Of a stretch of 31,416 bases of DNA, positions 8,523 through 12,802 are shown piece by piece (the first letter of the stretch is position 1; every line of letters starts with the position of its first letter). A model generated the notes under the pieces. The model made no database searches and was not told the DNA's origin. It saw only the letters and a program-made list of their open reading frames with translations. Source of the DNA: a virus; the IMG/VR virus record IMGVR_UViG_3300034106_004564, positions 1 to 31,416 of that record; one strand, written 5' to 3'. The translations under genes were made by a program, and so were the position numbers.

Positions 8523-10985
8523 TCAATACTCTAACTGCAGTGCGCCTCTGGTCATTAAGCCAGTGCACAGCCAAATTAAAGCGTCAACGCAGTCGTCATG
8601 AGAGCTTACACCAAAGTTTACGATCTCATCTGTTAAAGCGCCAAATCTGCGAAACCTGTTAAAGATGATTTTACGCTGCTCAAACAAACCCATGATTCCT
8701 CTAAACCGCGCAACTTTATCCCCACGGAAACCTTTTACTGCATGCCAGTTCATGTTGTAAAGCCCGTGTTCGCCTAAACAAATTCGTTTAAAGTCTGCCT
8801 CCAGGGATGCTTGGTATGCGACGGCTTCTGACCAAATGTCAACGTGGCTTCCTGTTGGGAAGTATTGATTCTTATCTTTGTGGATAACGCCCCATTCTTC
8901 CATCATTTCCATTAAGGCTTCTAGTTTTTCTAGGTTGCCCATAATCCGGAGACGTTTGGAATCAATGATATGAATCTTGTCTCCGACACGCCCACCCATT
9001 ACAAAAACGGTGTAGTCATTACGTTCTCGTACACCAGCAGAAAGATCGACGCCAACGCCAAGGGTGTCGAATTGTGTAGCGATGTTTCCTTTAACAATCA
9101 AATCTGGCGAAAGAGACAGCTCGCTGGTTTGAACAATTTGGTTTTGATACTGAAAGCTGAATGCAATAGGAGCTTGGCGACGCCTGTCTTGCAGGTATTC
9201 CAATGACCACATTTCGGGCCAGTATGATTCTTCGTCTCCGTGCTCATCTACGGTAATTGCTGATTGAACAATTTGGACCCAATCATTAGCTGGAGTAAAG
9301 GTACTGTTATGAATATCATCGTGCCGGAAACGCGTGCCAAGGCAGATAGCACGTCCGCCTTCAAACATAGTAGGAACAATAACTGAGTTCCAGTTATCTT
9401 CCATTGCTGATCGGATGTCGCGGTTTTTAATATCGTCGGCACTCTTGATAGCATCATCGATAATACAATTTGCTACACAATATCCACTTTTCCCCGCAAA
9501 GAAGTTATGGTTTTCTGATTTTGTTTCAAGGTCATAGACGTATTCCGGTTCAACGCAAGTTCTTGAAATAGAGGCAATGGTAACTCCAGGATCTTTGCTT
9601 TCTCCGCTAACTGGTGATACCCCACATGGCATTGCCTGCACAAGGTAATTAAATTCGTTAGCACGTTGTTTTTCGGATTGGCATCGATGTGATGAACTAC
9701 CAAATTGCTTCGGTTTGCTTGCTGTTTTACAGTCAACATGCGTTCCTGCGTATTGCAAAGTGCGCACTGCATATTGTCGCGTTGCAGAACAGCTTGACGC
9801 AAATCCGGTCGATTTGGTCTGCTGTTGCCGTGTTTCCAACGTGGGTTTGTTTTTCCACGCATTTTTTTGGAATGCGCCTTGGTAGCGCAAGCTTTTGAAC
9901 AACACTGACGCAAATAATTGTTTGGCCGAAAAAGTGTTAAACACTCCGGGCAAATTTTTGAATTCAGTGTTTGTTTTGCTAGTCCCGCACAACTCTTTGA
10001 GCACCAAAACATTTTGGCTTTGCTTTTGCGTAACATTTGCCTCCAGTTGGTGTTCACCTGGAATTCTTGCCAACACTGCGGGCAAACTGTTTTGATCTGA
10101 ATATTGCAAGCAATTGGAAATTTCAATAAGTCGGTCATTGACCTGAAGATCGTTGGCTGCAATAATTCCGCGTCCGGGGATATAAAAAGGGTGTTCCGGG
10201 GTTGCCCGTAGGAAATCTCCACAGCTTGTTTCCACGTGGATAAACCGGTTGGCAAGGCGGCGAGACACTCCGCGTATTCCAGACCACTCAAGGCAACCAG
10301 TTCTAGGGTTGAGGGTTGGAACTTGATAATTTCCTGGTGCTTGATAAATGTCATGGATAGGCACAGGCCCACGTTGGGTATGGACAAGTGTATCACCTGT
10401 CAGGCACAAATGGGAACGCTTAGAGGTCACAGCACCTTTAAGGCCAGCACAACAAACAGTGAATTCTTCTTCACCGGTTGATTTAATGCCTGCAAATTTC
10501 CAATCAATACTCCAATACTCGTTAGAGTTAATTCCTTTGGCAATTTTTACCATTGGAAAAACTTCTTTGTATGCTTTGCTTTCTTCAATAATTCGTTTAA
10601 TGGCCGCGCTTTTGGGACGGGCAACATCAACGGTGTATGAAATATAGAGAATTTTTAACGGTTTTTTGTGCAGAGCGTGAACACCAACTGCCCAAGCAGT
10701 ATAGAGACCTAAGATTGTTGACTTTGCTGAGCCGCGAGGTGCCAGGATGTCGATGTTTGGTCCACCAATGCCGATTAAACATTCAGTGCTTTCGTTAGTA
10801 CAGAGATAACGGTGCCATTCTTTGTGATGTCGTGCTGGTGGTTTGTCACCTACAACGTCACAAAAATAAGCAAAATCTGTACGTGCTCTTTCTATGTCAA
10901 TATCTGTTGTTTTTTTAACAACGCGTTGCTGTGCTGCTGCACGAGCAGTACGACGGTAAACGGAATAAATGCTAGTGCCTGCCAT
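8523..10985 (-). CDS. terL: Terminase large subunit, intein-containing
   Basis: An 820-residue precursor; removing the 313-residue intein leaves a 507-residue terminase. The packaging ATPase has Walker A APRGSAKST (82-90). The Walker B strand is split: SHL ends the first extein and CIIDDAIKS begins the second, so the catalytic acid pair lies just after the intein. Coupling motif LGTRFRHDD is near 549-556. The C-terminal RNase H-like nuclease shows VGVDLSAG (about 644-651, first Asp at 647) and the late acidic cluster SSHDDCVDALIW (794-805). It cuts concatemeric DNA and drives it through the portal. Start ATG at 10985, 24 bases after the upstream gene ends; no strong Shine-Dalgarno. Without protein splicing the ATPase would be inactive, so intein removal is required. 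Confidence 0.93.
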   Translation of the reverse strand: MAGTSIYSVYRRTARAAAQQRVVKKTTDIDIERARTDFAYFCDVVGDKPPARHHKEWHRYLCTNESTECLIGIGGPNIDILAPRGSAKSTILGLYTAWAVGVHALHKKPLKILYISYTVDVARPKSAAIKRIIEESKAYKEVFPMVKIAKGINSNEYWSIDWKFAGIKSTGEEEFTVCCAGLKGAVTSKRSHLCLTGDTLVHTQRGPVPIHDIYQAPGNYQVPTLNPRTGCLEWSGIRGVSRRLANRFIHVETSCGDFLRATPEHPFYIPGRGIIAANDLQVNDRLIEISNCLQYSDQNSLPAVLARIPGEHQLEANVTQKQSQNVLVLKELCGTSKTNTEFKNLPGVFNTFSAKQLFASVLFKSLRYQGAFQKNAWKNKPTLETRQQQTKSTGFASSCSATRQYAVRTLQYAGTHVDCKTASKPKQFGSSSHRCQSEKQRANEFNYLVQAMPCGVSPVSGESKDPGVTIASISRTCVEPEYVYDLETKSENHNFFAGKSGYCVANCIIDDAIKSADDIKNRDIRSAMEDNWNSVIVPTMFEGGRAICLGTRFRHDDIHNSTFTPANDWVQIVQSAITVDEHGDEESYWPEMWSLEYLQDRRRQAPIAFSFQYQNQIVQTSELSLSPDLIVKGNIATQFDTLGVGVDLSAGVRERNDYTVFVMGGRVGDKIHIIDSKRLRIMGNLEKLEALMEMMEEWGVIHKDKNQYFPTGSHVDIWSEAVAYQASLEADFKRICLGEHGLYNMNWHAVKGFRGDKVARFRGIMGLFEQRKIIFNRFRRFGALTDEIVNFGVSSHDDCVDALIWLCTGLMTRGALQLEY
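9468..10406 (-). mobile_element. Intein inserted at the Walker B motif of the terminase
   Basis: Precursor residues 194-506. Block A is CLTGDTLVHTQRGPVPIHD with the nucleophilic Cys194. Block B is TPEHPFY with the conserved T-x-x-H (262-265), followed by LQVNDRL. Block F is VYDLETKSENHNFFA (483-497). Block G is GYCVAN with terminal Asn506 and +1 Cys507. The penultimate His common before the terminal Asn is replaced by Ala505. Residues about 291-470 have no LAGLIDADG or other recognised domain and read like an out-of-frame translation; that DNA encodes an HNH endonuclease in another frame. Insertion in a conserved catalytic motif is typical for inteins. Confidence 0.92.
9473..10138 (-). CDS. 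HNH endonuclease nested in the intein in an alternative frame
   Basis: A 221-residue protein on the same strand as the terminase but in a different frame. The whole frame is open from 10396; I chose the ATG at 10138 because the codons before it are the intein's splicing blocks read out of frame, and AGG lies just upstream (TTCAGGTCAATG). From this start, treble-clef-like zinc pairs occur at about 19-22 (CPQC) with 46/50, and 63-66 (CPEC) with 79-84. A KTNPRWKHG segment follows at about 96-104, then the HNH core: CALC (125-128), VVHHIDANPKNN (147-158) and LCRQCH (166-171). This is a classical Cys4-type HNH. It stops five bases before the intein ends. It would cut intein-free terminase genes. 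The nested frame is seen directly; its expression is not. Confidence 0.85.
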   Translation of the reverse strand: MTDLLKFPIACNIQIKTVCPQCWQEFQVNTNWRQMLRKSKAKMFWCSKSCAGLAKQTLNSKICPECLTLFRPNNYLRQCCSKACATKAHSKKMRGKTNPRWKHGNSRPNRPDLRQAVLQRDNMQCALCNTQERMLTVKQQANRSNLVVHHIDANPKNNVLTNLITLCRQCHVGYHQLAEKAKILELPLPLFQELALNRNTSMTLKQNQKTITSLRGKVDIV

Positions 10986-11009: not shown

Positions 11010-11495
11010 TCAGGATTCTTCTGACAAGATTTTGGTCCAAACACCCATAGAAGCTTCCTGGAGAGGACCTTCAATGGGATCATCTCGAAAGATGGATAAC
11101 ATTTCACGCAATGCTCGGTCTGCGCCAGCAAGGATTAAACCTTGTTTATCAAGCAAAACCTTTTCGTCGTTCAGTTGTTTAATTGAGCCACGCAGTTCTT
11201 TTTGGAGCATTGCAATTCTCGACGTGCCCATATCTTGTTTAACCATGCCCATGTCAATGGCATCGCGTAGCTTGGCAATGTCACTTTGCATAGAATCAAT
11301 TTCGTCTTCTAAGATAGCGTTAAAGTTTCGTTTTTTGTATTCGTTTTGCGACCACTCATTGCACTCTACAATGCTACCTGTAAACCCGAGAAAACGGGCA
11401 TACAGGTACATTTGAATTGGAGAAGATGTACGTTTACAAAATGCAAGAAAGGATTCGCGGTCTTTGTCGGTTAAACTTTGAATCCAGGTTTTCAT
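11010..11495 (-). CDS. Putative terminase small subunit
   Basis: A 161-residue, largely helical protein. Residues 7-60 (TDKDRESFLAFCKRTSSPIQ, FLGFTGSIVECNEW) could form a helix-turn-helix DNA-recognition domain. Residues 60-130 are a strong coiled-coil candidate (EDEIDSMQSDIAKLRDAID, IAMLQKELRGSIKQL). It starts with an ATGA overlap with the upstream repeat protein and ends 24 bases before the terminase large subunit. Small terminases are typically this size, with an N-terminal DNA-binding domain and oligomerising coiled coil. Family identity is inferred from architecture and position; I see no diagnostic signature. Confidence 0.6.
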   Translation of the reverse strand: MKTWIQSLTDKDRESFLAFCKRTSSPIQMYLYARFLGFTGSIVECNEWSQNEYKKRNFNAILEDEIDSMQSDIAKLRDAIDMGMVKQDMGTSRIAMLQKELRGSIKQLNDEKVLLDKQGLILAGADRALREMLSIFRDDPIEGPLQEASMGVWTKILSEES

Positions 11496-12802
11496 GCACG
11501 GTATTGGCGTTGCGCCTGTTCGTAATCTCTGTTCTCTTTATAGCGCCTAAACATCTCTTGTTGCAAATCAGTTGTGCGTTGTTCGCTGCCGCTGGTTTGG
11601 ATTCCTTTACGCTGCTCTTCTCCGGAAACGCGAGTAGTTGCACGTTCTTGTTCGCCACGAGCACCAACCAAGCGTTCTTCACCAACATAACGTTCAGCTT
11701 GTGTTGCACGTTCTTGTGCTCCACGAGCACCAACTAAACGCTCCTCACCGCCATAACGTTCAGCTTGTGTTGCACGCTCTTGTGCTCCGGATTCCCTAAG
11801 CAATCCAGTTTCTCCTAAGTACCGTTCTGCTTGGGTTTGACGTTGCTGCGCTCCAGTAGCCCCAATTAAACGTTCTTCACCGGTGTACCTTTGAGCCTGT
11901 GTTTGACGTTCTTGTTCGCCGGCTGCTGCATAACCTAAACGTTGTTGCTCGCCAGTAACGCCAATTGTGGCACGTTCTTGCGTTCCACGGGCACCGACCA
12001 ATCGTTCTTCGCCACCATAACGTTCAGCTTGAGTTGCACGCTCTTGTGTTCCAGATTCTCTAAGCAGTCCGGTTTCTCCTAGGTAACGTTCTGCTTGGGT
12101 TGCACGTTGTTGTGAACCTGTTGCACCAATTAAACGTTCTTCGCCGCCATAACGTTCAGCTTGTGTTGCACGCTCTTGCGCACCAGAAACGCCGATTGTT
12201 GCACGCTGTTGTTCACCTGTTGCACCAATTAAACCGGTTTCACCAGCATATCTTTGAGCTTGGGTTGCACGCTGTTGTTCACCTGTTGCACCAATTAAAC
12301 CGGTTTCACCAGCATATCTTTGAGTTTGGGTTGCACGTTCTTGCTCCCCAGCTGCTGCATAGCCGAGACGTTGTTGCTCACCTGTGGTTCCGATTGTGGC
12401 ACGTTCTTGCGCTCCACGAGCACCGACCAATCGTTCTTCGCCGCCATAACGTTCAGCTTGTGTTGCACGCTCTTGTGCACCAGCAGTTTCTAAGCCAGTT
12501 CGATATTGTTGGCCTGTTGCACCAATAGTTGCACGTTCTTGTTCGCCAGCGGTAGCTGTTGTTAAACGTTGTTCGGCGCCGGCACTTTGAGTTCGCCTGA
12601 TGTCTTGACCGGTAAAAAACTCACTGTTAGTGCGATCAAGTTGGGCGCCTAACTCCATGTTTAAGCGTTGTTGCGCTGCCGCTACTTCATCAAGCGCACT
12701 TTGCGTACGTACAGCTTGAGTTGGTGTAGGAGTAACCGTTGGAGGAGGCGGCGGCGGATTATAAACGACGTTTGGGGGCGGCGGTGATGATGGTGATCCC
12801 AT
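11492..12802 (-). CDS. Virion-module protein built of 11-residue repeats
   Basis: A 436-residue protein. Residues 1-35 are Pro/Ser-rich (PSSPPPPNVVYNPPPPPP). From about residue 75 to 410 it consists of 11-residue units, often paired as 22, of two types: xQERATQAERY with GGEERLVGARG, and xQERATIGxTG or EQQRLGYAAAG. The C-terminal 28 residues are distinct (EMFRRYKENRDYEQAQRQYR). An 11-residue period is the signature of long right-handed helical or coiled-coil structures, seen in fibres and surface-adhering helices. Strong charge and few hydrophobics argue for a long solvent-exposed or membrane-lying helix. No family recognised. A TATAAT sequence lies 15-20 bases before the start, with no convincing -35. 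Confidence 0.8.
   Translation of the reverse strand: MGSPSSPPPPNVVYNPPPPPPTVTPTPTQAVRTQSALDEVAAAQQRLNMELGAQLDRTNSEFFTGQDIRRTQSAGAEQRLTTATAGEQERATIGATGQQYRTGLETAGAQERATQAERYGGEERLVGARGAQERATIGTTGEQQRLGYAAAGEQERATQTQRYAGETGLIGATGEQQRATQAQRYAGETGLIGATGEQQRATIGVSGAQERATQAERYGGEERLIGATGSQQRATQAERYLGETGLLRESGTQERATQAERYGGEERLVGARGTQERATIGVTGEQQRLGYAAAGEQERQTQAQRYTGEERLIGATGAQQRQTQAERYLGETGLLRESGAQERATQAERYGGEERLVGARGAQERATQAERYVGEERLVGARGEQERATTRVSGEEQRKGIQTSGSEQRTTDLQQEMFRRYKENRDYEQAQRQYRA
11573..12580 (-). repeat. 33/66-bp in-frame tandem repeats
   Basis: DNA repeats encode the 11-residue units of the surrounding gene. Near-identical 60-70-base copies recur: GCTTGTGTTGCACG followed by TCTTG with a conserved ACGTT spacing on the plus strand, and two adjacent copies around 12207-12340 are almost identical over more than 60 bases. 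Units of 33 and 66 bases alternate, which points to growth by unequal recombination. Confidence 0.9.

Follow-up and report, generated by a model that had tools for sequence, protein, structure and literature searches.

An HNH endonuclease gene in the +1 frame of a phage terminase intein

Introduction

Can an intein and the endonuclease that would mobilize it occupy the same DNA in two different reading frames? The question is raised by the IMG/VR record IMGVR_UViG_3300034106_004564, from a cyanophage-like virus, whose 31,416 bases were analyzed as a whole (hereafter the window), and in which the gene for the terminase large subunit (TerL) is interrupted by an intein that overlaps, in the +1 frame, an open reading frame (ORF) for an HNH endonuclease. 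A first-pass annotation, made from the sequence alone, had described an intein whose linker is an endonuclease gene read in another frame, and had named two compensating frameshift errors, or decay of an ordinary in-frame copy, as what would overturn this description. By building alignments of the relatives of this element, and by examining substitutions, predicted structures and phylogenetic trees, we conclude that it is very probably a mobile intein whose homing endonuclease is encoded separately, in the +1 frame of the DNA that encodes the intein. Splicing and homing would thereby share DNA yet not protein, an unusual separation of the two functions of a bifunctional intein.

The features of the locus are as follows.
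8523..10985, minus strand: TerL gene (820 codons), with the intein inserted ahead of Walker B
9468..10406, minus strand: intein of 313 amino acids (TerL residues 194-506), with Cys1, block B TPEH, block F and a terminal VAN, followed by Cys+1
10107..10406, minus strand: N-terminal half of the Hint splicing domain (intein residues 1-100), modelled by AlphaFold2 (AF2) with predicted local distance difference test scores (pLDDT) of 91-98 and matching inteins in PDB
9597..10088, minus strand: intein linker (residues 107-270), the TerL-frame reading of the HNH gene, without amino-acid constraint and predicted to be disordered
9468..9596, minus strand: C-terminal half of the Hint domain (residues 271-313, blocks F and G), AF2 pLDDT 86-96
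9473..10138, minus strand: HNH endonuclease ORF of 221 amino acids, +1 to TerL, with a probable start ATG at 10138 and the stop TAG at 9473-9475
9887..10084, minus strand: zinc-finger-like part of the HNH protein (C19, C22, C46, C50, C63, C66, C80, C84), conserved in relatives
9614..9694, minus strand: catalytic motif of the HNH protein (H149 H150 ... N158, N162, C167, C170, H175), Pfam HNH

The intein and the HNH reading frame

The 820-residue ORF is matched by Terminase_6C (Pfam) and by the terminase large subunit family of PHROG (E value 1e-71), as well as by Pfam Intein_splicing (E value 4e-7, under the curated cutoff). The intein is inserted after ...KRSHL and ahead of CIIDD..., directly before Walker B, and its block F reads VYDLET...NHNFFA in the TerL frame. 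By its nucleophile, block B TxxH, terminal Asn, Hint fold and insert-free homologues, the insert is a class 1 Hint intein. Across 39 aligned relatives C1, T69, H72 and N313 are invariant (C+1 comes next in the sequence); the invariant residues all belong to the splicing blocks, and the linker has none. The AF2 block means are 86-98 for intein residues 1-100 and 271-313 and below 50 for 107-270, and in Foldseek the Hint halves match solved mini-inteins (DnaB, DnaX, NrdJ-1) with E values down to 7e-7. Profile, motifs and model thus bear out the splicing blocks that had been read at both ends. The penultimate His of block G, which is common though not universal and not decisive, is not in the window intein, which ends in ...CVAN; the corresponding end is ...VLN in Synechococcus phage S-EIV1, and ...HN in Gordonia phage Clown and most distant relatives.

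The HNH frame of the window is open from close to the intein start, and its stop ends at 9473, exactly five bases short of the intein end at 9468; strand, length, start codon and this five-base gap are as originally described. The earlier figure of about 560 bases open in both frames was right as to the openness but not as to the extent, the overlap being 222 codons (about 660 bases) and the unfolded linker about 490 bases. The DNA of the C-terminal Hint half (9468..9596) also codes for the C-terminal tail of the HNH protein in +1. Family matches of the protein are PF01844 (E value 1.7e-4, above cutoff) and phrog_8446 (E value 2e-11). In 38 relatives with 26-90% identity to the window HNH, the zinc-finger Cys are invariant, C50 nearly so (alignments A1 and A6), and the residues of the catalytic motif are invariant or nearly so; H149, H150, N162, C125, C128, C167 and C170 are invariant among the HNH relatives. 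The predicted model has a mean pLDDT of 79, apart from the last 18 residues (which correspond to the block F/G DNA in +1), and a fold comparison with PDB matches it to HNH nucleases, with E values no better than about 0.01. To judge from these residues, the window protein has the HNH motif with the metal and zinc ligands of HNH homing endonucleases. It is not fused in frame, as the endonuclease of a bifunctional intein is: the HNH lies in +1 in every unsplit TerL-intein relative of the family.

Dual coding and selection

The number of stops expected by chance was obtained by holding the HNH protein fixed and drawing synonymous codons by local usage. For the window this predicts 17.6 stops in the TerL frame against none seen (0/4000 simulations), and the third frame holds 16; the open overlap is therefore far beyond chance. 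The TerL frame is free of stops in 11 of 11 loci tested, where 14-24 are expected (8 in Clown), and across the ten other tested loci the third frame has 9-24. As a control, the ordinary in-frame P-loop inteins of two of the same terminases (loci L009 and L101) hold 24-35 stops in either other frame.

Substitution patterns differ between the two frames. When the window is compared with its relative L087, the differences at TerL codon positions 1, 2 and 3 number 11, 4 and 80 in the exteins, and 48, 12 and 11 in the overlap, where position 1 of TerL is position 3 of the HNH. Over ten close pairs, an omega-like ratio (simple counting of single changes) is 0.20-0.30 in the HNH frame and 0.92-1.36 in the intein linker, and stop-creating changes are depleted in both frames. 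These patterns show an HNH frame under amino-acid constraint and a linker free of it: in one frame selection acts on the HNH sequence, and in the other it acts on the pair of splicing blocks and on the absence of stops. The per-frame check that had been suggested thus favors the proposed origin of the linker, which is both unconstrained and predicted to be disordered.

Distribution among relatives

A tblastn search of phage genomes found the HNH within the terminases of S-EIV1 and Clown, in +1 in both. Alignment-based scans of IMG/VR then gave about 60 loci, about 17 more and about a dozen, all of them in +1; over 80 contigs from these scans have no TerL-frame stop in the HNH region (one locus of the first scan, L133, is a contig-edge fragment and little informative). 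The expectation that both frames are kept open therefore holds in over 80 relatives. Among the relatives found, the HNH is never in +2 and never in frame at the Walker B site, and the enclosing ORFs that were tested with profiles are terminase large subunits, or terminases with intein domains, L212 (see below) excepted. The next-closest HNHs (L148 onwards and L192 onwards) are mostly free-standing and have numerous stops in each of the two other frames, so that a sharp jump separates the nested from the free-standing forms. Two scans of genome contigs for host-genome copies gave no relative.

This distribution bears on the suspicion that compensating sequencing or assembly frameshifts disguise an ordinary in-frame HNH intein, which the window, a single metagenomic contig, could not by itself dispel. 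The same layout recurs in two isolates and in over 80 contigs that were assembled independently; without exception the TerL frame holds the splicing blocks and +1 holds the HNH, and an explanation by such errors retains a practically negligible probability. In-frame HNH inteins do exist in other genes (L234, in DNA polymerase III alpha, and L295), but no in-frame HNH relative was found at the Walker B site of TerL, and the copies with a decayed HNH (L123, L144, L146 and L190) keep the intein frame. We therefore reject both sequencing error and a broken copy, since the arrangement is kept in relatives.

Some relatives depart from the common layout. In L201 (3448-6135), and also in L247 and L248, the intein with a +1 nested HNH occupies a different position in TerL, upstream of Walker A. 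In L009 (1228-4833), L101 and L146, the same terL gene also contains an ordinary P-loop intein (with LAGLIDADG in L009, by Pfam), and so has two inteins of unlike architecture. In L136 (2923-6516) the terminase contains another Hint domain, close to the C terminus. L055 was considered as a terL with a short insert and rejected: its terL is inteinless, and downstream of it, after 6521, come an HNH-like ORF and a repeated copy of the C-terminal terL codons, possibly an invasion of the terL end by a free-standing HNH.

Mobility and decay of the element

Terminases with and without the intein, the alignment of which had been proposed as a check, both occur: the empty alleles L014-L020 have an uninterrupted terL of 1521 nucleotides with 18-67 nucleotide differences from the window exteins, the closest being L017 (18/1521 differ; 98.8% identical). 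At fourfold degenerate sites, in the region upstream of the assumed HNH start, the window and L087 diverge by 60% in the exteins vs 22% in the intein N domain (P=3e-6), and L006 and L007 by 48% in the exteins vs 12% in the intein (P=1e-5). In the latter pair the 3' flank is also less diverged over its first approximately 100 nucleotides, as expected from co-conversion. Distances between HNHs correlate with those between splicing domains (partial r 0.62 given the exteins). The empty alleles, the low intein divergence and the correlated distances therefore fit movement of the element between diverged terL genes, by homing as a unit, with cutting by the HNH as the presumed cause.

We propose the following cycle. 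The TerL-frame product would be a Hint domain with a long unstructured linker, which would excise itself and restore TerL; from the same mRNA, an internal start just after block B would give a free zinc-finger HNH endonuclease; and this enzyme would cut intein-free terL near the Walker B codons, as the transfer footprints suggest, whereupon repair would copy the element in.

A different benefit is conceivable, namely that the HNH aids DNA packaging by TerL and is kept for the good of the phage rather than for homing. HNH proteins next to some terminases do give such help, HNH components having been described in packaging machines (Kala et al. 2014, as cited in PMC10448857), and the element is nearly always in terL or between its parts; yet near-identical phages do without it (L014-L017) and diverged terL genes exchange it, so that we regard a packaging role as improbable.

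The HNH frame has decayed in some loci: L123 has a stop in it, and deletions have removed much of the HNH from L144, L146 and L190, with the intein frame still open in all four. Nuclease and intein are therefore separable, as a homing cycle predicts. These broken or deleted copies are also what one would see if the HNH ORF were a dead passenger, a recently inserted relic bound to decay, but omega-like ratios of 0.2-0.3 and catalytic columns that are invariant over deep divergence make a mere relic very improbable.

Translation of the HNH

Upstream of the window ATG the sequence reads AGG TCA ATG. The AGG that had been noted there is present, but it is just 3 nucleotides away and is replaced by AAG in L087, and it therefore makes a weak Shine-Dalgarno sequence in the window subgroup. 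Most loci of the S-EIV1 group, and of that subgroup only, have a TTG at about intein nucleotide 277 with AGGG or GGGG about 6 nucleotides upstream. Conservation of NTG at the HNH start was not counted, because intein coding accounts for part of it. In L139 the +1 frame opens at about intein nucleotide 199, within the splicing domain, with an ATG 9 nucleotides further, and in L145 it opens directly at ATGATG.

Programmed +1 frameshifting out of the intein frame would instead yield a fusion of N-extein, splicing half and HNH. It would suit the many loci whose +1 frame is already open close to the beginning of the intein, and those in which the N domain has 0-1 stops in +1 vs 1.8-4.4 expected (P 0.005-0.4). 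The late openings of the frame in L139 and L145 run counter to it, as do the internal TTG of the S-EIV1 group with its Shine-Dalgarno-like spacing and the split relatives (see below), where the HNH is a separate gene; we consider frameshifting unlikely, and internal initiation of the HNH appears to be the simplest reading.

Several observations weigh against a mobile intein with a separately encoded endonuclease. Homing, splicing and separate translation of the HNH are all things that we infer from sequence. The splicing efficiency of the window intein is uncertain because its penultimate residue is Ala instead of His; the start column of the window subgroup is ATG, CTG or TTG with a weak or no Shine-Dalgarno sequence; the omega-like values ignore multiple hits; and the fourfold divergence of the intein could be lowered by the +1 frame, part of which is open ahead of the presumed HNH start as well.

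Split relatives and direction of change

In L191 (2526-5156), the closest apparently free-standing HNH, the gene stands between a TerL ORF that ends in the intein N-half and an ORF that opens with the C-half, and the split lies at the same TerL site as the nested form. Recoding of stops in L191 was considered and rejected, since its TerL frame holds 25 TAA, 10 TAG and 4 TGA. A scan with the L191 subclade found five more split loci (L251, L252, L253, L256 and L266), six in total; nested sisters in the same HNH subclade are L138, L145, L189, L254 and L259-L265. The split loci have 21-43 stops in the TerL frame. In four of them the two halves still share a frame and the HNH keeps the +1 position that it has in nested loci; in the other two the halves have drifted. 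Fractured genes, in which an endonuclease gene lies between the two parts of a split intein, were reportedly described by Dassa et al. in 2009, and the six split loci have this order at the TerL site of the nested form. In such fractured genes the endonuclease separates two ORFs, whereas the window has one continuous ORF, for which splicing would be in cis, and an HNH that overlaps the intein.

In our trees (quick searches with many weak branches), most split forms fall in or beside one nested subclade, with weak support and unsettled rooting. Because a nested element would have to gain no more than a start for its C-half to become split, and the reverse change would have to remove 21-43 stops, the former direction is plausible, though with such trees unproven. 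With the HNH expressed from a frame of its own and a start acquired by the C-half, an open linker would cease to be necessary and stops could accumulate, so that a continuous intein would turn into a fractured gene whose trans-splicing halves flank the endonuclease. That out-of-frame nesting is architecturally stable and also a path by which natural split inteins arise is a tentative proposal, to which we give slightly less than even weight. The nested, HNH-decayed and split forms make up a natural series, by which the origin of split inteins and the long survival of dual-coded genes become testable.

Relation to known systems

Out-of-frame HNHs have been reported for the ShiLan domain, a DNA methylase insert in which the HNH lies in the third frame, and for the Pacc40 insertion (Arsenault, Gosselin, Gogarten 2025, PMC11855218). 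These resemble the window element in having an out-of-frame HNH in an insertion that is open in the host-gene frame, and a sporadic, mobile distribution among phages; they differ in that ShiLan has a methylase host, no splicing domain or intein fold and the third frame, whereas the window element has TerL, a full Hint domain and always +1. One of our loci, L212 (170-1750), is itself a ShiLan-like insertion, a C5 DNA methylase ORF with a 184-residue HNH in +1 and no intein domain. For the statement that actinophages often have overlapping frames, PMC11855218 cites a preprint from the same group (Gosselin et al., bioRxiv 10.1101/2025.01.02.630785). That preprint, known here by its title ('non-canonical architecture' inteins), may already describe the Clown type; the title speaks of actinobacteriophages (Clown is an actinophage), and cyanophage and environmental phages, dual-frame tests and the nested and split series lie outside it. 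Mycobacteriophage TerL inteins share with the window element the TerL ATPase domain and, at one of their sites (TerL1-e), the position at Walker B, but have an in-frame LAGLIDADG where cleavage was tested (Kelley et al. 2016, PMC5050341), unlike the HNH in another frame found here.

A search of the available literature found no description of a nested HNH in a TerL intein, of its cyanophage-like and environmental spread, or of the link to split inteins. An out-of-frame HNH in a non-intein insert is thus already known, and its nesting in a TerL intein is apparently new, with the preprint as a possible overlap. Inteins with 'unknown' or empty linkers may hide a nuclease in another frame, and alternative frames are worth scanning; for tests of the arrangement itself, Gordonia phage Clown is a suitable isolate.

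Adjoining terL in the window, positions 11492-12802 encode a 436-residue protein of degenerate repeats (AQERATQAERYGGEERLVGARG).
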